Below are positions 7,201 through 46,777 of a stretch of 64,000 bases of DNA, in pieces. The translations under genes were made by a program, and so were the position numbers. Below the pieces are notes generated by a model. The model was not told where the DNA came from. It was given only the letters and a program-made list of their open reading frames with translations, and made no database searches. Position 1 is the stretch's first letter. Each line of letters starts with the position of its first letter. The stretch comes from an uncultured Elusimicrobia bacterium (GTDB lineage: Bacteria > Elusimicrobiota > Elusimicrobia > Elusimicrobiales > UBA9959), in assembly GCA_903917735.1 (NCBI GenBank), contig CAIXBR010000046.1:62001-126000 (forward strand), written 5' to 3'.

Positions 7201-10200
7201 TACTTCACCGGCTCCGGCTGGGGATTCCTTACGACACTTCCGGCTGCACTTGGCGGCGGAACGCTGAACACCACCAATAACCGATGGGAACATACCTGGA
7301 GCGTAACCCCGTCCACCGGCTGGGTGAACGATTACACTTATGAGATCCGCTACGTGGCCACCGACCTGGCGGGCAACGTCGAAAACCACAGCCTATCCAA
7401 TCCCGGCGTTTCCAGTATGACATTCACTATGGACCTGCAGGCTCCGGCGTCGGTAGCGACTTCCCCGGCTAACGGCAGCATCTACGGCGCCGGTTCCTGG
7501 CAGCTTTTCGGCACCGCTTCGGACAACCAGGGTCTTAACGAAGTGGACCTGTGCCTGAAAAAATCCACTTCCTCGGCTTTTACGTCGCCCTACCAGTACT
7601 GGAACGGCTTGTTCTGGCAGGACGATCCCGGCTATGATATCTGGGTCAGTTCCGCCAACATGCAGTCCCTCCCGGAAAAAACGCTCAGCTGGTCGTATGG
7701 CGGCATAAGCTGGTACTCAGGCACATATCAGGCCAGGTCGCGCGCCCAGGACGACGTGGGCCATTGGCAGAGCGCCATTACAACCAATAGCTTTACCATA
7801 GACATGACCGCGCCGACCGCCAGCATCACGGCGCCGGCCGATGCCGGGGCTTATAACAATGCGGTCAACTCGCTGAACAAGTTCCAGGGCCTGGCTGTGG
7901 ACGATATGTCAGGCATCCCCTCCGGGGGCGTGTCGGTCTGGATACAGGACCTCGGGCCGATAGGCAGCGCCCTGGCCTGGCCCACCACCTACTATACAGG
8001 TTCAGGTTGGGGCACCAGCCAGACGTGGCTTGTCGCCACGGTGGCCAACCCGGGCCTGAAAACCCCGTGGACCTACACCACTCCGACGCTAACCGACGGG
8101 CATAGCTACATCACACAGGTCCGGGCCACTGACGTGGCAGGGAACGTGCAGACGCCTATCAATCAAAACGGGTTCACGTACGATGTTAACTACCCCACCG
8201 CTTCCATAACCAACCCTGTCAACGGTGCTAACCTGAGCGGCCTGACCGACCTCGTCGGGAGTTACAACGACCCTTACCCCGGCTCCAATCCTGCAGCCCT
8301 TCCGGTTAAGATCTCCATCAGGCAGAACTTCGGCTCCAACCTGTACTGGATGGGCTCGGTCGGGGGCTGGGGGAGCAGTACCGAGCAGTGGCTTGACCCC
8401 ACCATGGGGAATGTCACCTCAGACACCACCACCTACACGCAGGCGAACTGGGACTATTCCGACGTGCCGCCATGGGAGAACCAGAAGATCTACCGCATAC
8501 GGGCGAAGGCCGTGGACTCGGCCGGCAACGCGCAGGATGCCTTGGGTGATTCCCATATTTCGGTATCCACGTTTACTTTCGACAACCAGAGCCCGACGGT
8601 TACCCTGTCGTACCCGCTGGACGGGGCAGCCTATTGCGCGGCTAATCCCCCTATCCCGAGTTCCGGCACGGCCTATAAGACGGGCCAGAGCGCGCCTAAT
8701 ACCGGGGTAAGCACGGTGGCGGTGCAGATAATGATGGACCCGGCCGGGACGCCTACCTGTTTCGACGGGGTTTCGGCGTTCGGGGCCTGCCCCGCCTGGC
8801 TGCCGGCGCAGGGGAGCGTGGCGGCGTGGACTTACACCAAGGCGGGGCTGCCCTTCATCAACAATCATTCGTACCGCGTGGACTCCAAGGCCACCGACTT
8901 CGCCGGCAACCCCTCTTCCGTGGTCTCGGCGACGATAAAGTACGAGGTGGATAAGCCCACCTCCGCCATCCTGTCCCCGCTCAACGGTTATACCACCGGT
9001 TTCGCGCAGGTGTCGGGAACCGCCGCCGACTTCACGGAGGCGTACATGGCCGGATTGGGCACTTACACGGTGAAAGTGGCCTTTAAGCGCGAGACTGGTT
9101 CTGAGACGGGCTGGTGGAACGGTTCCAATTTCGCCAACACCAACTCCGCCCCGACCTGGTACGAGGTTAGTCTGGCGACCACAGGGGCCAGTTCCGGCAA
9201 GTTCTTCTATAACCTGGACGGCAATCTTAAGAACTACCTGGCTGATTCGGGCTATCAGAACTCTTCCTACCGCATAGTTACCTGGGCCTATGACCTGGCC
9301 CTTAACCCGGAATACGGCCCCGTAGGCAGCCAGCCGCAGGCCGCCGACGTCCCGGCCGGCGTGGGCAAGGTGATAATTTTCGACAACCAGCCGCCGGCCA
9401 GCCACATAACGCTGCCCGTGCTGCCGTATTATAACAGTCTGCCCGTCATTTCTGGCACGACCGGCGATAATGTAAAGGTGTCAAAGACCTGGTTCTCCAT
9501 CTACAATACAACCCTGAACCAATATTATGACCCTTCGATCCATGCCTCCTGGCCCTGGGCGAGCGGCACCGAGGCTCAAGCTCCGTGGATCTCCCTGCAG
9601 CCGACCGAGACCGTTTACCTTAGCTCGTCGGTTTGGACCTACACCATTACTGATTCCAGCTGGACCAGCGGCGCCTGGTACGACATCCGCGCGAAAGCCG
9701 TGGACATCGTCGGGAATTACGATACGACCTACACCACGGCCACTTTTATGTTCGACAATGTGGCGCCCGTCTCCACGGTGACCGTGCCGGCGGACGGCAG
9801 CTACCTGAATTATATGCCCTCGCAGGTGAAAGGGACCAGTTTCGACGCGGCTTCGGGAGTTGTGGCCATAAATATCTATGTCACGCGCGACGCCGCGCCG
9901 CAGTATTGGAACGGCCTGGCGTGGGACGTCAATCAGCCTACGCTTTCGGTGAACAATCCCACGCTGGACACATGGGACTGGACGATATCTCCCACAATGT
10001 TCAACAGCAACGACGGCCGGCGCTTTACTATATTCACCAAAGCCGCGGACGCGGCGCTCAACAAGGAGAACTCCGACGCGTTCTCGATGAAGGCGTCGTT
10101 CGTTTACGACATCTCGAACCCCACGGCCGCCATCACCTACCCGTCGGACGGCGGCTATATCAGCAAGACCGGCAAAATAACCGGCGGCTGCTACGATATT

Positions 10201-13200
10201 CCCAACGGCGTGGTCAAGGACGTCTTCGTCGTCATAAAAGAGACCGCGCCCGGCACCAATTACGGCAAATACTACAGCGTGAACGGCGCCTCCTGGACCG
10301 CGGCCAACACGGTGAACAACGTTCTCACGTACGGCACGCTCAGCTCCGGCGCCACCTGGTGGCAGCTTAACACGCCCTCGCCCTGGCAGAGCGGAGAGGT
10401 CTACGAGATCTACGCCTGGGACGTGGACAAGGCCGGCAATTACCAACTTGCCTATTCCACTGCCGCCAACGTGAAAGCCGACTTCACCAACCCTCTTTCC
10501 ACCGTTACCGACCCCGGCAACGGCGCCGCCCCCTATTCGGACCTGACCGTTATCTCGGGCTCGGCTTCCGACGTGGCCCCCGGCACGCTGGCCGACGTCA
10601 AACTGTCCTATTACTGCATGTCCGACACGTGCAACGGCAAGTACTGGGACAGTTCGGCCATGTCCTGGGGGGCCACGGAAAAGTTCTACAGCGCCACCAC
10701 CATAGGCGGAGGCGCCTGGCAGGCCACCGGGGTCTCCACCCCCACCTGGGTGTTCAACAGCGCCAGCGGCGTGCTTTACCAGATCTTTGCCCAGGCCGTG
10801 GACGCGGCCGGCAACGTGACCACCAAGCCCGGAGCGGCGGCCCCCGCCTCCCCGCTGGTGCAGTTCACCCTGTATCCGCCGCGGCCGGTCAGCGCGATAA
10901 CGACCCCCGACGCCGCTACCCCGCATTATCAGCCCGGCCAGGCCATTATCGGTACGGCCATCTACGCTACCACTGTGGCCGTTCGCGTGGTGGATTACGG
11001 CGGGGACCTGACCGAGGGCACCAGCGACGACAGGGTGTGGAACGGCGGGGCCTGGGTCTCCACCACCGTCTTTACCGGCTACACCGGCGTTACTGCTTTC
11101 GCCGCTCCGAACTGGCAGTGGGACATCCCCGACACCAGCTGGAACGGCAACCGCAAATACCGCGTCACCTCCAGGGCGGTCAGCAGCGTGTACATCACTA
11201 CGGAAGTACCGTCCACCAGCAGGGAGTTCGTGGTGGACTCCACGGCCCCGTCCGCCGGCGTTACCATGCCGAACACGACCTTTATACACACGCTGACGTC
11301 TCTGTCCGGCACCGTCTCGGACGCGGCGCCCGGCACGGTGGTGTCCGCCCTCTTCCGCGTGAAGCGCACTTCTGACAGCAAGTACTGGAACTGGGTGGCG
11401 TCCACTTTTACCACGTCCGGGGCCAACACCGACCTGCCGGCCAGCTCGTTCGTCTGGGACGACGTGCTGAAGACCGGCACTATCGGCTATACCACCACCT
11501 ATTTCCAGGCGAACGTGGTCTTCGAGCCGGACCACAGCTATTCCGAGGAGATCTCCGTCACCGACAGGGCGGGCTGGACCACCGCCAACGCCGCCTCTTT
11601 CGCTTTCACCATGGATATAACCTCTCCTTCGGCCAGGATACTTATCCCGTCGACCTCCTCGGTCAACGGCGTGCGCCTGGTGAACGCCATAAGCGGCACG
11701 GCCTGGGATAATTCCGGCTACAACTACAATGTTTCCGTAGCCATCCAGCAGCTCGACCAGACCGGCGCCTGGTTCAGCAACTCCGCCCAAGCCTTCAACC
11801 TGATCCAGACGCAGCCGAACTGGATACCACTGCTTGGCAATACCAGCGCCTACCTGTCGCCCAGCGCCACCAGCTGGATGTACGCGCCCGCCGGCCTGGA
11901 CACGCGCTTTAACCCGTACGACGACGGCGTAAAGTACCTGATAATGGTAAAGGCGCTGGACGTGGCCAATAACGAGCAGGACGCGTTCGGCGTGGGCGTT
12001 TCCTCGGTGGTCATACGCATAGACAAGGCGCCGCCGTCCTCCGCCTTCATCCTTCCGGCGGACGACCTGGACGGCGCAAGCGGCCGCTACAAATCCACGA
12101 ACCTCGGCAAGAACGGCTCCAACTACCTGAACGGAACCGCCACGGACTCCGCCTACCATGTGAACAACGCCGGAGTGGTGGACGGCCGCATCCGCCTGTC
12201 CTACCTGGCGGCCGGCGTCACCTACTATTATAACGGCTCTAACTTCGTCAGCGGTGTTTCCTCGGATACCATGTGGCAGAACATCTCGGTAACCGGCTCG
12301 GCCCCTGCCTGGGCCTGGACCTACGGCCAGAATATAACCTGGCCGAGCCCGGTGGAGCATGAGTACAAGGCCGAAGTAAAGACCATGGACGATTCCCGCC
12401 TGCCCGACGCCAGCGTTGGCGGCAACTGGGAAACCGCGCAGGCGCGCGGCGACAATGTGCGGTATTTCATACTTAACGACTCTCCCCCGTCGGTGCTGAT
12501 AACCACGCCGTCCGTAGTAGCGGTGCGCACGCTGCCCGGCATAGGCGGCACCGTGAGCGCCAGCACAGTCGGCTTCAGCGGGGTGGAGCTGCAGATCTCC
12601 ACCGCTTCCTACGCGCGCTACTGGAACGACAGCACCGGCTTGTGGCAGGCCGGGGCAAAATGGATAACTACCAACGGCAAGCTGGGCGATACCTCCTGGT
12701 ATTACACTATACCGGCGGCCATGCTGGCCGACGACGTGGTATACACCTTCAATGCGCGCGCGCTGGATTATGCCGGCAACTACTCCACGCTTTATGCCAC
12801 CAGTGCTGTCACGTACGATATTAAGGCCCCGAATGTGACCATGTCCTATCCGTTGGAAGGCGCTGCCTATTCGCATATTCTGGTTTCTACGCAGGTGACA
12901 GGCGGAACTACTTCCAGCCAGTTGTCCGCCAATACCGGGGTAAGCACCGTGGCGGTGGCGGTCAGCCAGGTTTCCGGCGGCGGCGCCTATCTCTACTGCT
13001 TCGACGGCTCCACCTTTACGGCCTGCTCGGCGCCGGTTTTCCGGCCCGCGCAGGGAACGCTGCCCAATTGGAATTATACGGAGCCCGGGCTGGCCTTCGG
13101 GAACGACTTCCTGTACAGGTACGATGTCCGCGCTATGGACTTAGCCGGCAACTATTCCTCCGTGGTAGGGGTCACCACCAGATATGACGTGCAGATCCCC

Positions 13201-37751: not shown

Positions 37752-39368
37752 ATGAAACGCATTCTTATTGATGCATTTGCCCCCTTGGCTATACGGGCTT
37801 TCCTGAAGCGCTTAATACGCTTCAGCCCCGCCATGGGGTTTTTTATTGCGTTTTCGGCGGTTTCCGCCCTGGCCCAGAGCGGCGGCCAGCCCGGCCAGTT
37901 CATGTCTTACGGCGCCGGCGCCCGCGCCCTCGGAATGGGCGGCGCCTTCTTCGCCGCGGCCGACGACGCTTCAGCCTCCTACTGGAACCCCGCGGCCCTC
38001 ACCCTGCTGGAACGCAAGGAATTCACCGCGATGCAGGCCACCCTGTTCGCCGACACCACCCTGAACTTCTTCACCTACGCGCACCCCACCACCAGCAGGG
38101 GCACCTGGGCAGTAAGCATGACCCAGCTGAAGTCGGTGGGCTTCGAGAAGATCTCCATCACCGCTAACCCGGCCGGCGACGAAATAATCGACATTAAGAA
38201 CCTGGGCAATTTCGACAGCACGGAGCGGGCTCTCGCTTTCTCCTGGGGCCGCGATGTTTCCGAGAAGCTCTCTTTCGGTGTGATGGCCAAGAACATCAGC
38301 CGCCAGCTTGACACCTCCAAGGACTCCTTCAACGCCATAGACATAGCGATGCTGCAGAAGTTCTCTTCCACCTACCGCGCCGCGGTGGGCATACAGAACG
38401 TATTCTCGATGGCCTCCGGCGACACCGAGGACAAGCTCCCCCTGACCCTGAAGTTCGGCCAGGCCTTGAGCCTCTTCAAAGGCAGCCTGTTGTTCGGGTT
38501 CGATATAGCCAAGCCCCAGGGCGCCGCCATGAACTGGCGCTTCGGCGGCGAGTACTGGCTGATGTACTGGGCGGCGCTCCGCTTCGGCGTGATGGGGGCC
38601 CCCGGCATACAGGAAGCCGACTTCGGCCTGGGCATAAAGTACAAGAGCCTCGGCTTCGACGTGGCCGAGGGCGTGCACGCGCTCGGCACCACCACCCGCT
38701 TTTCCGTGACCATGCGCATGGGCGCTTCCAATAAGACGAAGCATGAAAAAGAAGTCCGCGACATTGTCCGCCAGGCTCTGCAGTATTTCAAGTCCGGCTA
38801 TTTCAGCCGCGCGATGGAGAAGCTGCGCAGCGCCATGGACGCCGATCCCGGCAACACCGAGATCCGCCGCATGATCACCCGCCTCCAGGCCGCCATAGAC
38901 TACGTGCCGGAAGCCACCGGCAGCGAGGAAGTGCCCACCCTCACCCGCCGCGGTATCATCTCCTACGTGGACGGTAAGGATATGCGCTCCTCCGTCAACA
39001 TCCTGCGCCACTCCTTCAACAAGGACCCGAAGAACGACCGCCTGCTCTCCCTGCTGAACATGGTGGAGAAAGAGTCCGGCGTTACCGAACTGACCCGCAA
39101 GCCGGAAGGCCCCGAGATATTCACCTATATCGACCAGCGCACCTACGACGCCCGCCAGGCCATCTACGAGGGCAAATACGACCTGGCGATGAAGCGCTCG
39201 CAGGACATCCTGGACCTGGAGCCCAACAACGAGACCGCCCTTGAGATCATGGGCAGCTCCTTCTACCTGATGGACCAGAAAGAGAAAGCCAAGGTCATCT
39301 GGGAGAAGGTCCTTGAGATCAACCCCAACAACCAGCTGATCAAGAACTTCCTGAAGCAGGTGCGTTAA
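37752..39368 (+). CDS. PorV-like outer-membrane beta-barrel with C-terminal TPR domain
   Basis: The protein has 538 residues. The N-terminus has a long basic region, a hydrophobic core and a cleavage site (LKRLIRFSPAMGFFIAFSAVSALA-Q). The mature part starts with the hallmark of PorV/PorQ and FadL-like barrels: GAGARALGMGGAFFAAADDASASYWNPAAL. A 14-strand-type barrel of about 290 residues follows. From about residue 335 the chain turns into TPR-type helices (ALQYFKSGYFSRAMEKLRSAMDADPGN; later YEGKYDLAMKRSQDILDLEPNN). In type 9 secretion, PorV carries C-terminal-domain substrates at the outer membrane; here it follows the gene for such a substrate. The TPR tail is not part of classical PorV. An internal ATG at 37833 would remove the basic residues of the signal, so I prefer 37752. 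Confidence 0.8.
   Translation: MKRILIDAFAPLAIRAFLKRLIRFSPAMGFFIAFSAVSALAQSGGQPGQFMSYGAGARALGMGGAFFAAADDASASYWNPAALTLLERKEFTAMQATLFADTTLNFFTYAHPTTSRGTWAVSMTQLKSVGFEKISITANPAGDEIIDIKNLGNFDSTERALAFSWGRDVSEKLSFGVMAKNISRQLDTSKDSFNAIDIAMLQKFSSTYRAAVGIQNVFSMASGDTEDKLPLTLKFGQALSLFKGSLLFGFDIAKPQGAAMNWRFGGEYWLMYWAALRFGVMGAPGIQEADFGLGIKYKSLGFDVAEGVHALGTTTRFSVTMRMGASNKTKHEKEVRDIVRQALQYFKSGYFSRAMEKLRSAMDADPGNTEIRRMITRLQAAIDYVPEATGSEEVPTLTRRGIISYVDGKDMRSSVNILRHSFNKDPKNDRLLSLLNMVEKESGVTELTRKPEGPEIFTYIDQRTYDARQAIYEGKYDLAMKRSQDILDLEPNNETALEIMGSSFYLMDQKEKAKVIWEKVLEINPNNQLIKNFLKQVR
37803..37844 (+). terminator. Terminator-like stems inside the start of the PorV-like gene
   Basis: CTGAAGCG-cttaata-CGCTTCAG (37803-37825) is followed at once by CCCC-gccat-GGGG (37826-37838) and TTTTTT (37839-37844). 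This is a good intrinsic terminator, but it lies within codons 18-31 of the frame that starts at 37752. It is placed where the riboswitch expression platform is expected. Confidence 0.7.
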
Positions 39369-39480: not shown

Positions 39481-41418
39481 ATGAGGAAGTTACTTTTTCC
39501 GCCCCTTCTGTTCCTTCTCGCGCTGCCCGCGGTGCCCGAGCGCCTTTATGCGCAGCAGGAGAACATGGAGACTTCCCTGATGGAGAAGCAGGACGGCATG
39601 CGCCGGGAAGTGGAGACCAAGATAAAGAAAGAGATACTGGACCCTATACTCGGGGCGGACAGGTCTTTCGTTTTTGCCGACGTGGAGATGGAGGTTATAG
39701 CGAAAAAGGCCGACCAGACCAACGAGGGCGTGGGCGTAATACAGAAGTACAGGGAGAAAGGCGCCGGCCAGGATCAGGGCGGCAACACTGATTTTCTGCT
39801 GCCCGGCATCCCCAAGCCTAAATCCGTGCTGGGCACCGACAACAAGCGCCCCGAGTCGTCCCTGGGCCAGCAGACCCAGCAGGCCAAGGGCATGCAGAAG
39901 ACGCGCTACGGCCTTGAGACCGAGATAACCGGTTTTCAGCTGACCGTGATACACGACGACCTGCTGCCCAAGGCCGCCGTGGCGCTGGCCCGCGAGCGGG
40001 TGAACGATTTCCTTCTGCCGTACAAGATACGAAAAAAAGACGCGCCCACGGTGGTGTTCAAGCCCACCAAGTTCAAGGCGGCCAACCCGCTAGACGACCT
40101 GAAGCGGCCCTCGGTCTATCTGCCGTTGCTTTACGCGCTACTTTTCCTTATACTGCTATTGTTCCTTTTCGGCCCGCTCTGGGGCTTCTTCCGCAAGTAC
40201 GTCAAGGCGCTGATGGCCAAGCCCGGCGCCGAGGTGAACATCGAGGATAAGAGGGAGGAGGGGGGCGGAGGCGAGGAGGAGGGTAAGGATGAGACCGAGG
40301 GCCACCAGAGCATAGACATGAGTTTCCTCCAGAAGGATGAGGAGAAAAAGGAAGACGAGGACGCGCTTATGAAAAAATTTGACCCTTTTACCTACCTCAA
40401 CGAGGAAAATCTGAAACGCCTGATCTACCTGTTCCTGCTCAGGAAAGAGGACCCTTGGGTGATAGCGGTGGTGCTCAGCTACCTGAAGCCGGACCTGTCC
40501 CGCCAGGCGCTGTCCATGCTGCCGGTGGAGATGCAGTCACGAGTGGCGCTGGAGGCGCTGACCGTGCGCCAGGCTACCCGCGAGCAGATAGACGCGATAG
40601 ACAAGGACATACGCGACAACGTGGATTTCGTGATGGGAGGCATAGAGCGGCTGTCGAAGATGTTGGAGGATTCCGATCCGGCGACCCGCAAGAACATCAT
40701 AGAGTACCTTAAGACTCAGAAGCCGGACATCTTCGAGAAGGTCAAGCGCATAATGATGATGTTCGAGGATATCGTCAATTTCCCGGACCGCGATATGCAG
40801 ACCATCATACGCAGCCTGTCCAACGAGGACATAGCCAAGGCCGTAGCGAAGGCGGACCCCGCCCTGGCCAACAAGTTCTTCTCCAATATGTCCCAGGGCG
40901 CGGTAAGCGCCATAAAGGAAATAATGGAGTACTCCGGGGAAATAACCCCTGTGCAGCAGGATGAGTCCCAGATGAAGATCCTGGACGCCATAAAGGCGCT
41001 GGAGGCTGAGGGCAAGATAAACGTGCGCCAGGGCAACACTCAGGAGGTCTATATAATAGACGGCGGCGAGATGTCCTCCGGCGACGAGCGCAAACGCAAG
41101 TTCGAGAGCATGACCGCTCCGAAGGAAGAGGCTTCCACCGGGCTCACGCGTGAGCAGACCGAGCAGGCCCGCCAGTACATGGCCGCCGGAGTGGACATGT
41201 ACAATCAGGGGAAGATACAGGAGAGCCTGCAGTATCTGGAGTACGCCTCCTCGGTCAATCCCGGTGACGCCCAGACCTGGCAGTACCTGGGCGCCGCGTA
41301 TTACGCCCTTCAGCGCGTGGATGACGCGGTGGCCGCCTACGAGAAGTACGCTATCCTTTCCGGGGACCCGGCCGCGGCCGAATGGCTGACCGGCTTCAAG
41401 CAGCAGGTGGGGAGATAA
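39481..41418 (+). CDS. FliF/FliG-like fusion protein with TPR tail (rotor-like)
   Basis: The protein has 645 residues. After a signal sequence (MRKLLFPPLLFLLALPAVPERLYA), residues 45-200 resemble the periplasmic ring-building/collar region of FliF: KKEILDPILGADRSFVFADVEME, a linker, then GFQLTVIHDDLLP and a closing VVFKPTKF. A membrane segment follows (about 211-237), then an acidic linker. Residues 300-512 match FliG middle and C-terminal domains: KEDPWVIAVVLSYLKP (family EHPQ.IA..L..L.P), MGGIERLSKMLEDSDP, then FEDIVNFPDRDMQTIIRSL and FFSNMSQGA (family NMS.RA). A TPR pair ends the protein (about 560-645). It looks like an MS-ring and C-ring fused in one chain, without FliF RBM1/RBM2 or the FliG N-domain. 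A TAGAAT box lies 7 bases before the ATG with no Shine-Dalgarno, suggesting a leaderless mRNA. Confidence 0.8.
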   Translation: MRKLLFPPLLFLLALPAVPERLYAQQENMETSLMEKQDGMRREVETKIKKEILDPILGADRSFVFADVEMEVIAKKADQTNEGVGVIQKYREKGAGQDQGGNTDFLLPGIPKPKSVLGTDNKRPESSLGQQTQQAKGMQKTRYGLETEITGFQLTVIHDDLLPKAAVALARERVNDFLLPYKIRKKDAPTVVFKPTKFKAANPLDDLKRPSVYLPLLYALLFLILLLFLFGPLWGFFRKYVKALMAKPGAEVNIEDKREEGGGGEEEGKDETEGHQSIDMSFLQKDEEKKEDEDALMKKFDPFTYLNEENLKRLIYLFLLRKEDPWVIAVVLSYLKPDLSRQALSMLPVEMQSRVALEALTVRQATREQIDAIDKDIRDNVDFVMGGIERLSKMLEDSDPATRKNIIEYLKTQKPDIFEKVKRIMMMFEDIVNFPDRDMQTIIRSLSNEDIAKAVAKADPALANKFFSNMSQGAVSAIKEIMEYSGEITPVQQDESQMKILDAIKALEAEGKINVRQGNTQEVYIIDGGEMSSGDERKRKFESMTAPKEEASTGLTREQTEQARQYMAAGVDMYNQGKIQESLQYLEYASSVNPGDAQTWQYLGAAYYALQRVDDAVAAYEKYAILSGDPAAAEWLTGFKQQVGR

Positions 41419-41425
41419 AGAAAGA

Positions 41426-41549
41426 CCGCCCGGGGCATGGGCCCGTCGGGCCCTCACGGAAGGCGAGGCTTGCGTAGCGCCGAGCCTGAGTGGGGAGCGC
41501 GGCCACGGTGTGGCCGACGCGGTGCCCGACGGGCCCATGCCCCGGGCGG
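41426..41549. repeat. Intergenic hairpin repeat, family copy 2
   Basis: A perfect 25-base inverted repeat (41426-41450 and 41525-41549) surrounds the same core as copy 1: GAGGCTTGCGTAGCGCCGAG and GGCCACGGTGTGGCC (41501-41515). The arm sequence is unrelated to that of copy 1. It begins 8 bases after the stop of the fusion gene. The rest of the gap to 41671 is AT-rich and holds a promoter. Confidence 0.82.
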
Positions 41550-41612
41550 GCTTACGAGTTATGCAGAGGATTAGGAACTGGATTTTAAGTTGTTAACAAT
41601 TTTTTAACTTAA

Positions 41613-41640
41613 TTGAAATCAGCTTTCTTTAGAATATAGT
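41613..41640 (+). promoter_or_regulatory. Promoter of the coiled-coil gene
   Basis: The -35 TTGAAA (41613-41618), a 16-base spacer and the -10 TATAGT (41635-41640) lie in an AT-rich stretch. Transcription would start near 41647, about 25 bases before the start codon. Confidence 0.65.
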
Positions 41641-41671
41641 GGAAGCAGAATAGCGAAAAAGCAGCTTATAT

Positions 41672-44044
41672 ATGGACGACAAGGACAAGAAAATTTCTAA
41701 GCCCGGCATACCTCCGCTGCCGCCCGGCATGATGAAGCCGAACCTTCCGCCCATGCTGGGGGGAAAGCCTTCTTTGTCCCCGGTACAGCCGTCTTTCGGA
41801 GCGTTCCCTTCTCCCGGCATGCCGCAGATGCCGTTCGCTAATCAGTTCTCCCAGCCGCAGCAGCCCCAGTCTTCCCAGGCCGCCAGGGACGCCGCCGCCG
41901 AGGAGTCCCAGCGGATGAAGGACGATAAGGACAAGCTGGAGAAAAAGATCACCGACATGGAAAAGCTCCTCTCCCAGGAGAAGGAGAAAGCCCTGCTCGC
42001 CACGCTGAAGAACCAGCAGGACGAGGCACTCTCTTCCCGGGTGGAGTCCTCGCTGAAGGATATACAGGACAAAATGCGCCGCGACCGCCGCGACCACGAG
42101 GTCGAGGAGGAAAGGCTGACGTTGAGAGGGAAGATAAAGGAACTGGAGACCCGCCTTTCGCAGGAGCGCGAGACCTGGATGCACACGCTCAAGGAGCAGA
42201 TGTCGGAGCGCGAAACCCAGGGCCGTGACGTGGAAGGGCATTTTATTTATCGGCTGCAGGAGATGGAGCGCCGCTGGCTGGACGAGAAGGCGCAGTGGCA
42301 GAAAGAGATCTCTTCGCGCGAAGAAACGATCCGCTCCCTGAAGACCGCCTCGGAACGCCTGCGCGAAGTGGAGGACGAATTCCGCAAGGTTTCCCTGGAA
42401 AAGTCCATGACGGAACGCGAAGCCTCGAAGCTCCGTGACGACGTGGCCCGCGCCGAGCGCGAAAAGGCCTCGATAGAATCCTATATAAAGATGATTCCCG
42501 AGAAAGAGCGGGAGATCGCGGACCTCAGGTCGGAAAATATAATGCTGCGCGGCCGTGAGGAAATGACGAACTCCGCGGTGCGGTCCCGCGAAGAGGCCGC
42601 CCGCCTGGAAGCGCTGCATCGCGATGAAAAATATAATTCCGAGATGGGCCGCCTCCAGGCCGAGCTCGGGTCCATCTCCGACCGCAAGAACGCCGAGAAG
42701 AACGAAGAACTGAAGACGGTCCAGGCCCGCTACGAGGGTGAGCTGCAGGAAAAGGAAAAATCCATTGCCGACATTTCCGGAGAGAAGATCCGCGCCGTGT
42801 CCGAGCTTTTGAAGATAAAAGGCTTTGTTTCAAGGGTGCAGGCCATAAACGCCGTGCTTGACAAGGAGCGCGGCCAGCTTAAACTGGAGAAAATGCAGCT
42901 CGCGCAGAACATGGCCGCCCAGCTGGAGGAGATTAGGCGCCAGAGGCAGGAGCTGGACAGCTTGAAAGCCGCCCACCAGCGCGAACTTGAGGCGCAGGCT
43001 GTAGCCTTCAAGGCCGCAATAGCCAGGGTAAAGGACGGTTATGGCGCGGAGATGGACCACAAGCACGCCGAGGATCTGGCCGCCGCCGCCCGCACCCGCC
43101 AAGAGGAGCTGGAAAGGATCTCAACCGCTCACCAGTTGGAGCTTTCCAAAACCGCTTCGTCTTACCAGGCGGAGATAGCCAGGATTTCAAACCTCAGCCA
43201 GGAGGAGGCCGCCAAGTCCGCCGCCGCCCACCAGGCCGAGATGTCAAGGATAGCTGCGGAGGGTCAGGGAAAAGTGGAGGAATGCGTGTCGCAGATGCGC
43301 ATCAGGCTTGAGGCCTCCGCCGAGGAAGAAAAGAATGCCCTCAGGCGCCAGCTGGAGGCCGAGCACGAGGCGCAGCTTAAGGAAGCCAAGGACGCAGCCG
43401 ACGCTTCAATGGATTCTATCGCGAAGCTTGAGGTGGAGAACCGCCGGCTCCGGGCCGTAGCCGCCGACTTCGACATGACGATGGCCGCGCGCACCAAGGA
43501 ATCCGGGGAGCGTATGGCCCGCCTGGAAGAAGATATGCGCCGCCAGGACGCCCAGTTGGCTGCCGCCTCGGCTCAGAAGGCCGAAGCGGAGAGCCTGGCC
43601 CGCGACGCCGGCAAATACGCCCGCGACGCCGCGGACGAGTACCAGAAAATTTCTTCGGAACACGCCTCCATAAGGGAGCAGTACGCCGCTCTCGCCGCGC
43701 AGAAAGCCGCCGCGGACGCCGATATCGCCAAGCTGGCCGAGACTCTCCGCGCCCAGGGCGAGGACCTCAGAACGGGAAGCGAAAACCGCGCCCGCTCCGA
43801 ATCTGAACTCCTTTTCCTGAAGCAGAAAATACAGCAGATGGAATATCAGGCGCAGGAAACCGCGGCCGCTCTCGAGGCCGAACGCGCCGCCGCGCAGGCC
43901 GCCCGGGACGCCGCGGCCGAACAGAAGGCCCGCGACACCGCCGGCATGGCGGAGCTTTCCGGGGCGCTGGCCCGCTATAAGGCGCTTGAGGCCTCCTTTC
44001 CGGAAAGGCTGAAGTGGGCTATTAAAGGCAAAAAGCAAAGTTGA
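41672..44044 (+). CDS. Long cytoplasmic coiled-coil protein
   Basis: The protein has 790 residues and no signal peptide or membrane segment. Residues 1-70 are Pro/Met-rich and flexible (GIPPLPPGMMKPNLPPMLGG). From about residue 75 to 770 the sequence is an almost continuous Glu/Lys/Arg/Ala-rich coiled coil of the SMC/tropomyosin type. It ends with a basic tail (SFPERLKWAIKGKKQS). No ATPase motif is present. Its place between the FliF/FliG-like rotor gene and flbD-motA-motB suggests a structural partner of that machine, for example a scaffold or linker to the cytoskeleton; this is inference from position. Coiled-coil cytoplasmic proteins such as AglZ play such roles in Myxococcus gliding, without detectable homology here. 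Start: first ATG, no clear ribosome site. Confidence 0.85.
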   Translation: MDDKDKKISKPGIPPLPPGMMKPNLPPMLGGKPSLSPVQPSFGAFPSPGMPQMPFANQFSQPQQPQSSQAARDAAAEESQRMKDDKDKLEKKITDMEKLLSQEKEKALLATLKNQQDEALSSRVESSLKDIQDKMRRDRRDHEVEEERLTLRGKIKELETRLSQERETWMHTLKEQMSERETQGRDVEGHFIYRLQEMERRWLDEKAQWQKEISSREETIRSLKTASERLREVEDEFRKVSLEKSMTEREASKLRDDVARAEREKASIESYIKMIPEKEREIADLRSENIMLRGREEMTNSAVRSREEAARLEALHRDEKYNSEMGRLQAELGSISDRKNAEKNEELKTVQARYEGELQEKEKSIADISGEKIRAVSELLKIKGFVSRVQAINAVLDKERGQLKLEKMQLAQNMAAQLEEIRRQRQELDSLKAAHQRELEAQAVAFKAAIARVKDGYGAEMDHKHAEDLAAAARTRQEELERISTAHQLELSKTASSYQAEIARISNLSQEEAAKSAAAHQAEMSRIAAEGQGKVEECVSQMRIRLEASAEEEKNALRRQLEAEHEAQLKEAKDAADASMDSIAKLEVENRRLRAVAADFDMTMAARTKESGERMARLEEDMRRQDAQLAAASAQKAEAESLARDAGKYARDAADEYQKISSEHASIREQYAALAAQKAAADADIAKLAETLRAQGEDLRTGSENRARSESELLFLKQKIQQMEYQAQETAAALEAERAAAQAARDAAAEQKARDTAGMAELSGALARYKALEASFPERLKWAIKGKKQS

Positions 44045-44061
44045 TACGCAGGCAAAGCTTT

Positions 44062-44112
44062 GGAGACGGGATGTTTAGGGTGCAGGCTTTGCGTCCTTAA
44101 ATGCCCGTCTCC
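44062..44112 (+). terminator. Stem-loop after the coiled-coil gene
   Basis: GGAGACGGG (44062-44070) pairs with CCCGTCTCC (44104-44112), with an inner TTTAGG/CCTTAAA extension. It lies 18 bases after the stop. There is no T-run, so it may be an RNA-stabilising 3' stem rather than an intrinsic terminator. Confidence 0.5.
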
Positions 44113-44140
44113 TCGCATCTCGACGGCACGGCAATTTAAG

Positions 44141-44146
44141 TATAAT
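44141..44146 (+). promoter_or_regulatory. -10 box of flbD, leaderless type
   Basis: A perfect TATAAT lies 7 bases before the ATG at 44154 and no Shine-Dalgarno is present. Transcription would begin at or next to the start codon. The -35 region is not recognisable. Confidence 0.55.
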
Positions 44147-44153
44147 TAATCTG

Positions 44154-44378
44154 ATGATAAAGCTTGAGAAACTCAACGGGACCACGATAGTGATCAACGC
44201 TGAACTCATCGAAAGCGTTGAGGCCGCGCCCGACACGGTCATAAACCTCGCCACCGGCAACAGGTACCTGGTAAAGGACCCGGTTGACGTCGTGATAGCA
44301 AAGGTGATCGAGTATAAAAAAAAGGTTTACGCCGAGCGGAAGTGCGTGAACCCGCTGGAAGGATTTGAGAGGAAGTAG
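44154..44378 (+). CDS. flbD: FlbD family flagellar-associated protein
   Basis: The protein has 74 residues and matches the small FlbD family over its full length: MIKLEKLNGTTIVINAELIE, then ESVEAAPDTVINLATGNRYL and VKDPVDVVIAKVIEYKK. In flagellated bacteria of several phyla flbD sits directly before motA-motB in the flagellar operon, and the same order is kept here. Its biochemical role is not settled. It is one of the few flagellar-locus genes left in this window, and this supports a flagellar origin of the neighbouring motor genes. The motA start lies 29 bases downstream, so the genes are probably cotranscribed. Confidence 0.88.
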   Translation: MIKLEKLNGTTIVINAELIESVEAAPDTVINLATGNRYLVKDPVDVVIAKVIEYKKKVYAERKCVNPLEGFERK

Positions 44379-44407
44379 CGGCGGCCCGCTAATTCTCCGG
44401 AGTTAAT

Positions 44408-45196
44408 ATGGATATAGCAACATTCACCGGGATCGTGGTTTTCGCGGGTTTCGTTTTCGGCGCCATCTATATGCAGGAAGGTATAGCCGGCTTCAAACCC
44501 TTCATGAACCTGGAAGCGTTCATGCTGGTGCTGGGCGGTACCTTCTGCGCGCTGCTGGTCAATTTCCCCCTCTCCTCCGTCATCGGAGTGGGCAAGGTGC
44601 TGAAGAAGGTCATGACCTCGAAGGGCGAGGATACGTCCAAGCTCGTCTCCACCTTCGTCTCTCTTTCGCAGAAAGCCAAAAAAGAGGGCTTCCTGGCGCT
44701 GGAGGGCGATGTTAAGGCGATAGACAATGATTTCCTGAAACGCGGCGTGCAGCTGGTCATCGACGGCGCCGACCACGAATTCATCCGCAACATGCTCGAG
44801 ACCGAGATCGACTTCATAAGGGCGCGCCATAAGGCCGGCCGGGAGATCTTCAACGCGCTCGGCACCTACGCCCCGGCTTTCGGCATCATCGGCACCGTGC
44901 TCGGCATGATCCTGATGCTTTCCTCCATCGACGACGTGGCCCAGGTGCCGCGGCGCATGGCCATGGCGCTGGCGTCCGCCTTCTTCGGCCTGGCGTCGGG
45001 CTATTGGCTTTTCCTGCCCATCGGCGGCAAGCTCAAGAACCGCTCCGAAGAGGAGCTGTTCGTCAAGGAGATCATCATACGCGGCGTACTGCTGCTGCAG
45101 AGCGGCGCCACCCCCAGCGTGGTAGAGGCCAACCTTAAAGCCTACCTGGAACCGGAGAAGCGCAAGGCCGTAAAGAAGGAAGGCGCGGCGGCCTGA
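44408..45196 (+). CDS. motA: MotA-like proton/sodium channel stator subunit
   Basis: The protein has 262 residues with four membrane segments in the MotA layout. Two lie near the N-terminus (TGIVVFAGFVFGAIY and the LVLGGTFCALLVNFPL hairpin). A large cytoplasmic loop has charged residues (EIDFIRARHKAGREIF). Two C-terminal helices follow (YAPAFGIIGTVLGMILML and MALASAFFGLASGYWLFLPI). The GGTF..LVN.P and GTYAPAFGIIGTVLG motifs are typical of flagellar MotA rather than ExbB/TolQ. MotA forms the pentameric ring of the ion-driven stator and pushes on FliG; the likely partner here is the FliG-like domain at 39481. CGGAG precedes the ATG. The tail is basic (EKRKAVKKEGAAA). Confidence 0.92.
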   Translation: MDIATFTGIVVFAGFVFGAIYMQEGIAGFKPFMNLEAFMLVLGGTFCALLVNFPLSSVIGVGKVLKKVMTSKGEDTSKLVSTFVSLSQKAKKEGFLALEGDVKAIDNDFLKRGVQLVIDGADHEFIRNMLETEIDFIRARHKAGREIFNALGTYAPAFGIIGTVLGMILMLSSIDDVAQVPRRMAMALASAFFGLASGYWLFLPIGGKLKNRSEEELFVKEIIIRGVLLLQSGATPSVVEANLKAYLEPEKRKAVKKEGAAA

Positions 45197-45218
45197 GATA
45201 CCCGGCACGGATCCAACT

Positions 45219-46013
45219 ATGGCTTTAAAGATGCGCAATATGATCCCGGAGGACGACAGGCGCGTGGCGCCTGTGGGTGAGCCCGCGCCCCCGTGGATGG
45301 TCAATTACGCCGACCTCATGACCGAGCTGGTCTGCTTCTTCATCATCCTTTACGCCCTGAGCGCCGCGCTCAGCAAGGATATGCAGAAAGCCCAGCAGGA
45401 AGTGCAGGAGATGATAAAAGAGGGCAAAATGGCCGGACAGGTGGCCATGGACAAAGAGGGGATGCGCATAACCCTGGAGGAACAAAGCCAGATGGCTTTC
45501 TTCGAGAGCGGCAAGGCGGACATGACCGACCAGATGCGCGCCCAGATGGACAAGCTGGCGCCTGTCCTTTTAAAACTTTCCGAAAAACACGACATAGTGG
45601 TGGAGGGGCATACTGATAATATCCCCATAGCCACCAAGCTGTACGCTTCCAACTGGGAGCTTTCCACCGCCCGCTCCACCAGCGTGGTCAAATACCTGCT
45701 GTCGTCAAATTTCAGCCCGAAGCGCCTGTCAGCGGTAGGCTACGGGGAATACCACCCTATAGTGCCGAACGACACGGAGCCCAACCGCAAGAAGAACCGA
45801 AGGGTGGTATTCTTTATAAAGAACAACCCGTACCCGGAGGCCAAGGCGAACGGGCCCCCTGTCCCGGCCAAGAAAGCCGCTGGGCAGCCCGGAGCCGAGC
45901 AGCCCGCTGCCCCGGTTGAAGCGGTGCCGGCGGCGGAACCCGCGCCCGCACCCGCAGCGGAGGGGGAAGTCCCTCCGGCAGCAGGGGCCGCGGGAACTGA
46001 AGGCGGGCAGTGA
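45219..46013 (+). CDS. motB: MotB-like stator subunit with OmpA-type peptidoglycan-binding domain
   Basis: The protein has 264 residues. One membrane helix carries the channel aspartate: WMVNYADLMTELVCFFIILYA, Asp32, the position essential for ion flow in MotB. A plug-like amphipathic stretch (DMQKAQQEVQEMIKEG) follows. The OmpA/MotB domain has the pattern VVEGHTDN.P and NWELSTARSTSVVKYLL, then RLSAVGYGEYHPIVPN and NRRVVFFI. The last 50 residues are an Ala/Pro-rich tail not usual for MotB. It follows motA by 22 bases and runs into the lipoprotein gene. Confidence 0.93.
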   Translation: MALKMRNMIPEDDRRVAPVGEPAPPWMVNYADLMTELVCFFIILYALSAALSKDMQKAQQEVQEMIKEGKMAGQVAMDKEGMRITLEEQSQMAFFESGKADMTDQMRAQMDKLAPVLLKLSEKHDIVVEGHTDNIPIATKLYASNWELSTARSTSVVKYLLSSNFSPKRLSAVGYGEYHPIVPNDTEPNRKKNRRVVFFIKNNPYPEAKANGPPVPAKKAAGQPGAEQPAAPVEAVPAAEPAPAPAAEGEVPPAAGAAGTEGGQ

Positions 46014-46018
46014 ACAAC

Positions 46019-46777
46019 ATGAGAAAAATAAAGTTGATCTTCAGGCTTGGCGCTCTGGCGCTGCTGTCCGCCCCGCTGGCGGGCTGTTTTGGCGGGATGA
46101 AACGCCTTAAGGTGGTGGATTATACCGACCAGCGCGTTGGAGACCTGTCGCTTACCAAGAAGGTCACAGGGAAGAGGGATTTTCTGTTCTTCTCCACCAC
46201 AAAGATGGGTATCTTCATGGAAGGCAACCTGCAGGGCATAATAACCGACTACCAGGGCAACCCTATAGAGGGGGTCACGGTAAAAGTAGTGCCGGACGCG
46301 GGCAAGTCCAAGACCGGTATTGAAATGGGGGCGGACGAACTGGCCGCGGCGCAGGAGAACGCCGGCGCGTCTATAAACCTTTCTTTCGCCCCGGGCATCA
46401 GCGATACCATGGGCCTTTACAAGATACATTTTTCCCTGCCGGTGGTGGACGACGAGGTGGATGTGCGCGGCAAGCTGGTCTATAACCCCGGCTGGGACCA
46501 GCAGAAGCTTAACCTGGGCAAGGCTTATGAGCCGCAGATGAAGGAATCCCCTTTCCGGCTTTACTACGACCTGAACAACGGCTTTCTAGCTTTCGCAGAG
46601 GGCGTACGCAAGGTGATAGTTCAGCCCGTGGGCGAGGGCAAGGGGCGAATGCAGAACCTGCCCGGCTCCAAGGCGCCCGAGCAGACCAAGCCGGCCGGCG
46701 CTGCGGGCGAGGCCGCCCCGGCAGAAGGCGGCAAGGCTGAAGAGGATCTGTTCAAGGGTTTCGATTTCGGGCAGTAA
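46019..46777 (+). CDS. Lipoprotein with carboxypeptidase-regulatory-like (Ig) domain
   Basis: The protein has 252 residues from the ATG at 46019, which has GAAGGCGGG upstream. A GTG at 46010 in the same frame is a weaker choice. The lipobox is ALLSAPLAGC. Residues 70-130 contain GNLQGIITDYQGNPIEGVTVKVV, the signature of peptidase-associated/CarboxypepD_reg Ig domains often found on outer-membrane proteins. The C-terminal 60 residues are Ala/Pro/Glu-rich and end with EEDLFKGFDFGQ. It takes the place where fliL or fliM follows motB in true flagellar operons. An envelope part of the motor, perhaps linking the stator to the outer membrane, is a guess from position. Confidence 0.78.
   Translation: MRKIKLIFRLGALALLSAPLAGCFGGMKRLKVVDYTDQRVGDLSLTKKVTGKRDFLFFSTTKMGIFMEGNLQGIITDYQGNPIEGVTVKVVPDAGKSKTGIEMGADELAAAQENAGASINLSFAPGISDTMGLYKIHFSLPVVDDEVDVRGKLVYNPGWDQQKLNLGKAYEPQMKESPFRLYYDLNNGFLAFAEGVRKVIVQPVGEGKGRMQNLPGSKAPEQTKPAGAAGEAAPAEGGKAEEDLFKGFDFGQ

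Follow-up and report, generated by a model that had tools for sequence, protein, structure and literature searches.

What would a bacterium that encodes no recognizable flagellum do with the rotor and stator of a flagellar motor? The question is raised by a locus of the uncultured Elusimicrobiota genome G000 (3.59 Mb, 93.5% complete), where a fliF-fliG fusion gene (fliFG, 39481-41418) lies together with flbD, motA and motB. The window analyzed here is the whole stretch of 64,000 nucleotides that holds this locus (contig C46, positions 62001-126000), and positions given without a locus prefix refer to it. A first-pass annotation, made from the letters of the window, had placed a FliF/FliG-like fusion, FlbD, MotA and MotB together on one strand, and all four are found there, on the plus strand. 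We conclude that these genes very probably encode an active FliFG/MotAB motor; sequence comparison gives good support for the motor core, and gliding is the output that we infer for it. Counts across the phylum refer to a set of 341 Elusimicrobiota genomes, G000 included, and the genome searches covered this phylum only.

The fusion protein and its stator

The protein encoded at 39481-41418 (645 amino acids, plus strand) is a predicted rotor subunit that combines parts of FliF and FliG with C-terminal tetratricopeptide repeats (TPRs), and its closest named relatives come from Elusimicrobiota metagenome-assembled genomes (MAGs), with 77-78% identity. In its FliG half, FliG_M (residues 319-380, 40435-40620; PF14841, 1.1e-10) is followed by the FliG_C torque domain (residues 409-514, 40705-41022; PF01706, 6e-25), which carries E480 at the position of Escherichia coli D288. 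The TPR region lies at residues 566-640 (41176-41400), with TPR_2 matching in 39/39 orthologues. FliG of T. maritima is the closest solved structure (6e-32 in a PDB sequence search), the NCBIfam fliG model scores 8e-34, which is under that model's full-length cut-off, and profile-profile comparison with FliG of flagellated Elusimicrobiota gives an E value of 1.8e-27. Whether the protein is FliG-like, a check named by the first-pass annotation, is answered with yes by Pfam, by the PDB sequence search and by profile-profile comparison. MgtE_N also matches the protein, weakly (1.8e-6), which could speak for an MgtE-N-like adaptor rather than a rotor; this is very improbable and was rejected, since the scores of FliG_C, FliG_M, T. 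maritima FliG and the flagellar FliG profile are far higher.

The fusion is confirmed, with a FliF half that looks like a remote relative, limited to the third ring-building motif (RBM3). An RBM3-like periplasmic domain (residues 27-200, 39559-40080), assigned by hhalign to Elusimicrobiota FliF, follows a signal-peptide-like N-terminus and precedes a single strong transmembrane segment (residues 212-230, 40114-40170; Kyte-Doolittle peak 2.77). The alignment to the true FliF of flagellated Elusimicrobiota (Prob 96, E 1.4e-9) covers the RBM3 region only, and the portion of FliF ahead of it (RBM1/RBM2) is absent from the fusion. The Pfam FliF C-domain, PF08345, matches 12/39 orthologues, the window protein not being among them, and a match of this type is found in a G000 paralogue of the fusion (1.7e-7). 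A scan of viral contigs for further relatives of the fusion returned none. Two genomes hold partial copies in addition to the full fusion: a 346-residue FliG of the fusion clade that lacks the FliF part (G327, L082:8836-9876; the full fusion is at L053), and two FliG_M-like fragments of 89 residues in tandem, immediately upstream of the full fusion (G227, L060:8042-8591).

The stator is of the flagellar type. MotA (44408-45196, plus strand; PF01618, 1e-27) is matched along its whole length by the flagellar-type NCBIfam models for MotP/MotA/PomA (to 5e-69) and by no ExbB/TolQ model, and MotB (45219-46013, plus strand) has a plug (6.5e-12) and a peptidoglycan-binding OmpA domain (1.4e-18). The channel residue Asp32 of MotB, which the first-pass annotation had reported as kept, is invariant in 26/26 orthologues; in MotA, P156 and P204 are invariant. 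Likewise confirmed is the order flbD-motA-motB (44154-46013), that of flagellar operons. It begins with a FlbD/SwrD-family protein of 74 residues (44154-44378, plus strand; PF06289, 4e-25), a family that exceeds its cut-off in 100 genomes, 97 of which also bear FliG, although these are related genomes and not independent cases, so that a hypergeometric value for the overlap cannot be read as a fair probability. SwrD is the FlbD homologue of Bacillus. A stator-tuning role would fit FlbD, since SwrD raises flagellar power in the account that PMC9195833 gives of Hall et al. 2018.

In E. coli, MotA R90 contacts FliG D288-D289 and MotA E98 contacts FliG R281 (PMC12505986). The first of these charge pairs is kept as K91/E480: K91 of MotA, at the R90 position, is basic in 28/28 orthologues and E480 of FliG is Glu in 39/39, with the D289 position acidic in only about half. 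Together with the invariant MotB Asp32 and the MotA prolines, this one conserved FliG-MotA charge pair suggests a working motor. In the FliM-binding EHPQR motif of FliG, E and P are kept and Q/R are gone in most orthologues, a partial loss that is expected where there is no FliM. Several loci (L045:7215-8527, L046:10320-11721, L069, L081 and L056) have two unlike motB genes in tandem next to one motA, which could correspond to a stator with two different B subunits.

Flagellar parts, spread and descent

The first-pass annotation had found no export, switch, rod, hook or filament gene in the window, and this absence now extends to the whole of G000; a full flagellar gene set elsewhere in the genome, which that annotation had named as a refutation, was thus looked for and not found. 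Profile searches for FlhA (PF00771), FliM/FliN (PF01052), the full FliF ring of the membrane and supramembrane (PF01514, YscJ_FliF), the rod/hook C-domain (PF06429) and flagellin (PF00669) gave 0 matches in G000 and were positive in control genomes. Judged by its gene content, the system is not a flagellum, as five defining features were tested and none was found. Flagellar genes have been reported as clearly absent from Elusimicrobia (PMC7031533). Across the phylum, FliG_C is carried by 151/341 genomes (69 of 100 genera), compared with 5/341 for FlhA and 4/341 for FliMN_C over its cut-off (PF01052), each of these four with FlhA. Genome incompleteness was rejected as the reason for the absent flagellar parts, since FlhA is missing in 147 of the 151 FliG-bearing genomes. 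FliG is absent in nearly all of family f2 and was not found in family f21, both of them small-genome groups that are probably host-associated, judging from genome size and from the known biology of gut Elusimicrobia/Endomicrobia; that small-genome lineages are mostly without FliG is in keeping with the frequent loss of motility there. A genome that has FlhA and no FliG_C match (G168) contains a FliG-like frame of 248 residues ahead of fliM (L089:39-785), either a MAG frameshift or a FliG that lacks the C-terminal domain.

Several such motors are encoded in G000. We observe five FliG_C proteins, each clustered with MotA and MotB, and two of these clusters carry two MotB genes each. Six MotA/ExbB-family proteins are present, five of which sit in the five FliG clusters, and the four paralogous MotA proteins are of the flagellar type as well (NCBIfam). 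In one paralogue cluster (L044:8867-10870), the FliG gene is immediately followed by one whose product has a C-terminal histidine-kinase ATPase domain (HATPase_c, 6e-20) and may be a signalling protein tied to that motor.

To place the fusion, we built a tree of 53 FliG_M/C domains, of which 32 are from window-type fusions; 43 rows are non-flagellar and 10 are flagellar, with flagellar-type FliG from a plasmid search serving as comparison rows. All 32 window-type fusions fall into a single clade (support 97/87) that tracks taxonomy and takes in other classes of the phylum. G110, read with the caution due to a MAG, has the fusion in addition to a true flagellar FliG lying among flagellar genes, and the fusion is therefore not simply a leftover. 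A degenerate remnant, left from a flagellum that was lost and no longer working as a motor, would agree with the operon-like order flbD-motA-motB and with the partial loss of EHPQR. It is nevertheless extremely improbable, and was rejected, given that Asp32, the MotA prolines and E480 are invariant across the phylum in a single vertically inherited clade, that G000 holds five clusters, and that fusion and true flagellum coexist in G110.

The split of the 43 non-flagellar rows from the 10 flagellar rows has a support of only 62/52, and the paralogues are long branches, so that the motor may descend from that of a flagellum or be an old sister of it. The first-pass annotation had proposed an ion-driven motor kept from a flagellum and repurposed for another output. 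This proposal is supported in the main, by the conserved residues and the absence of flagellar parts; the motor may have been kept, and another output is what the gene neighbours would suggest. We tentatively propose, at slightly less than even confidence, a phylum-wide class of rotary machines that has the motor half of the flagellum and lacks the export half, occurs in several kinds per cell, drives giant surface proteins, and may be related to the flagellar motor as an ancient sister and not as a descendant.

Neighbouring genes and the possible output of the motor

On the plus strand, the genes follow in the order giant protein, PorV-TPR, fliFG, coiled-coil gene, flbD, motA, motB and lipoprotein gene. 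The giant is a secreted protein of 11,054 residues (4258-37422) with immunoglobulin-like repeats (Big_13/Big_3_2) and a C-terminal FlgD_ig match (1.1e-6), and it is followed by a PorV/PorQ-family outer-membrane barrel with C-terminal TPRs (37752-39368; NF033709 over its cut-off at 2.9e-31, TPR_19 2e-7). A cytoplasmic coiled-coil protein of 790 residues (41672-44044) has no match in Pfam or NCBIfam, and its gene sits downstream of fliFG in most of the 35 loci of window-type fusions that make up our synteny sample. The coiled-coil gene, the C-terminal TPR of the fusion, the PorV-TPR gene and the tie to the giant go beyond the first-pass annotation, which had correctly recognized a lipoprotein at the place of fliL/fliM: the gene for a predicted outer-membrane lipoprotein (46010-46777) overlaps the end of motB, and its lipobox Cys26 is invariant in 14 homologues. 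All 14 also show a CarboxypepD_reg-like match (PF13620), which is weak (best 0.0011, below cut-off); a CarboxypepD_reg domain has been reported in the type IX protein PorE (PMC12204202).

PorV-TPR lies directly upstream of fliFG in 34/35 loci. A recognizable giant-type secreted C-terminus is found upstream in 21/35, and MotA/MotB lie within about 10 kb downstream in 22/35. Upstream giants are also found in seven other genomes, one of them from outside the class: 14,428 residues in G150, 14,454 in G331, 11,664 in G112 (where other genes intervene), and at least 8,300-10,800 in G119, G124, G141 and G239, where the gene is cut by the stretch or its start is uncertain. The window giant, possibly an adhesin that the motor moves or delivers, matches the type IX secretion type A sorting-domain model TIGR04183 at its C-terminus below cut-off (0.0015). 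Type-A C-termini, like PorV-family barrels, are components of type IX secretion. A SprA-like protein is present in 292/341 genomes, G000 among them. The G000 protein (contig C94, L099:10168-15594; 1,808 residues) has no good Pfam match, and its gene adjoins two lptF/lptG-looking genes. GldM was matched in 0/341 genomes, with the control genomes silent too, and GldL was not searched for.

We propose that FliF-FliG subunits would assemble into an inner-membrane ring, with the RBM3-like domain on the periplasmic side, a single helix crossing the membrane, and FliG_M/FliG_C in the cytoplasm. MotA/MotB, anchored on peptidoglycan by the OmpA domain of MotB, would turn this ring through the FliG-MotA contact as ions flow via Asp32; FlbD would tune the stator, and the coiled-coil protein would bind the rotor TPR and position the rotor. 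The periplasmic face of the rotor could then act on the PorV-TPR barrel, the lipoprotein or both, and the giant type-IX-like surface protein would thereby be moved along the cell, like SprB in Flavobacterium, resulting in gliding. This explanation as a whole, gliding included, is in our view evenly balanced between right and wrong.

The same neighbours could also point to secretion. The motor might energize a type-IX-like pathway, with its SprA-like protein, PorV-like shuttles and sorting domains, in place of GldLM/PorLM, and the giant would then be cargo. Secreted, cargo-like proteins with similar, type-A-like C-termini and PorV-family barrels do adjoin the G000 motor clusters, the broad presence of SprA-like proteins and the lack of a GldM match agree with such a substitution, within the limit set by the silent controls, and in Flavobacterium one type IX motor drives secretion as well as the motion of the adhesin SprB (PMC8986121). 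However, SprA-like proteins are as common in the FliG-less families f2 and f21, so that the secretion pathway does not need the motor there, and five motors per genome are many for one translocon. Secretion alone is thus the weaker account, and we regard it as rather unlikely; gliding is the better one, and a double role is possible. Non-motility work in the envelope, such as load sensing, surface-layer remodelling, or the pulling of outer-membrane proteins for particle attachment, would suit the several paralogous motors per genome, their differing outer-membrane partners and regulators, and the histidine-kinase domain of one neighbour. We consider this quite unlikely, as the window-type system is syntenic with the giant phylum-wide and inherited as one clade, which is more like one dedicated machine.

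Several observations weigh against the proposed gliding motor. Both its output and the link from rotor to outer membrane are read from gene neighbours. The MotA E98-FliG R281 pair is lost, the FliG position being Gly/Asn/Ser in 39/39 orthologues and the MotA position mostly Glu/Gln. An AlphaFold2 model of the fusion built from three sequences was unusable (predicted local distance difference test 43.8, predicted template modelling score 0.23) and gave no MotA-FliG interface model; its low-confidence periplasmic order, alpha-beta-beta-alpha-beta, is RBM-like and is not counted as evidence. PorV-TPR is not found upstream at L073, the exception among the 35 loci, there is no giant gene upstream of the fusion in G107 and G156, and in several deep lineages flbD-motA-motB lie at another locus of the genome. 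Finally, the SprA-like protein of G000 scores 1.2e-21 with TIGR04189, under the curated cut-off.

Relation to known machines and variants of the locus

Taken part by part, the system appears to work like a flagellar rotor-stator motor, and its core alone could pass as a variant of one. The two share the RBM3 region of FliF, FliG_M/FliG_C, a flagellar-type MotA, a MotB with Asp32 and OmpA domain, and the order flbD-motA-motB, and they differ in the fusion of FliF with FliG, the missing RBM1/RBM2 part and the added TPR. Compared with a flagellum, the system lacks matches to FliM/FliN, the export gate, rod/hook and flagellin, has partly lost EHPQR, and is surrounded by outer-membrane and giant surface proteins. 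Engineered FliF-FliG fusions (PMC6079021, PMC11481574; PDB 8z4d) join the same two proteins and form rings, but these are laboratory fusions of flagellar proteins, whereas the fusion here is natural, shortened and provided with a TPR.

With the Bacteroidota type IX/gliding machinery (GldLM, SprA, PorV, SprB), the system shares PorV-family barrels and a probable ion-driven motor; a SprA-like translocon and a type-A-like C-terminus of the giant, both with model matches below cut-off, would add to the likeness. The resemblance is partial, as the motor differs, being FliFG/MotAB and not GldLM (for GldM, with the limit noted above). The giants here reach 8-14 thousand residues, and SprB is shorter, with about 6,500. 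The Agl-Glt gliding motor of Myxococcus (AglRQS) likewise has a MotAB-superfamily stator without a flagellum, and we know of no FliG rotor in it. AglRS have been placed with generic ExbBD/TolQR-like transporters, outside the flagellar group, in a study that does not mention the phylum Elusimicrobiota (PMC12505986). The injectisome also shares part of the flagellum, but the converse half, having an export apparatus without the motor where the present system has the motor without export.

To our knowledge, FliG is known solely as a flagellar protein. The machine as a whole, with its FliF-FliG rotor, no export apparatus, type-IX-like outer-membrane partners and a giant surface protein, fits no kind known to us. 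In the open-access literature we found no earlier description of this Elusimicrobiota system or of a non-flagellar FliG; preprints and most subscription papers were outside this scope, and priority is not established. If true, a conserved FliF-FliG/MotAB motor without the other tested flagellar parts would mirror the injectisome and make testable the old question of separate origins of the flagellar rotary motor and the export apparatus. It would also give the mostly uncultured Elusimicrobiota a candidate means of moving, and link outer-membrane proteins of type-IX-like character with a motor of the flagellar type.

In the window, the lipoprotein gene is followed downstream by MnmA-like and Ddl-like genes, both assigned by eye. 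Deep lineages (L049:10204-15012, L057, L074 and L080) have an extra protein of about 1,550-1,850 residues encoded between fliFG and the coiled-coil gene, which ends in TPRs in L049 and L057.

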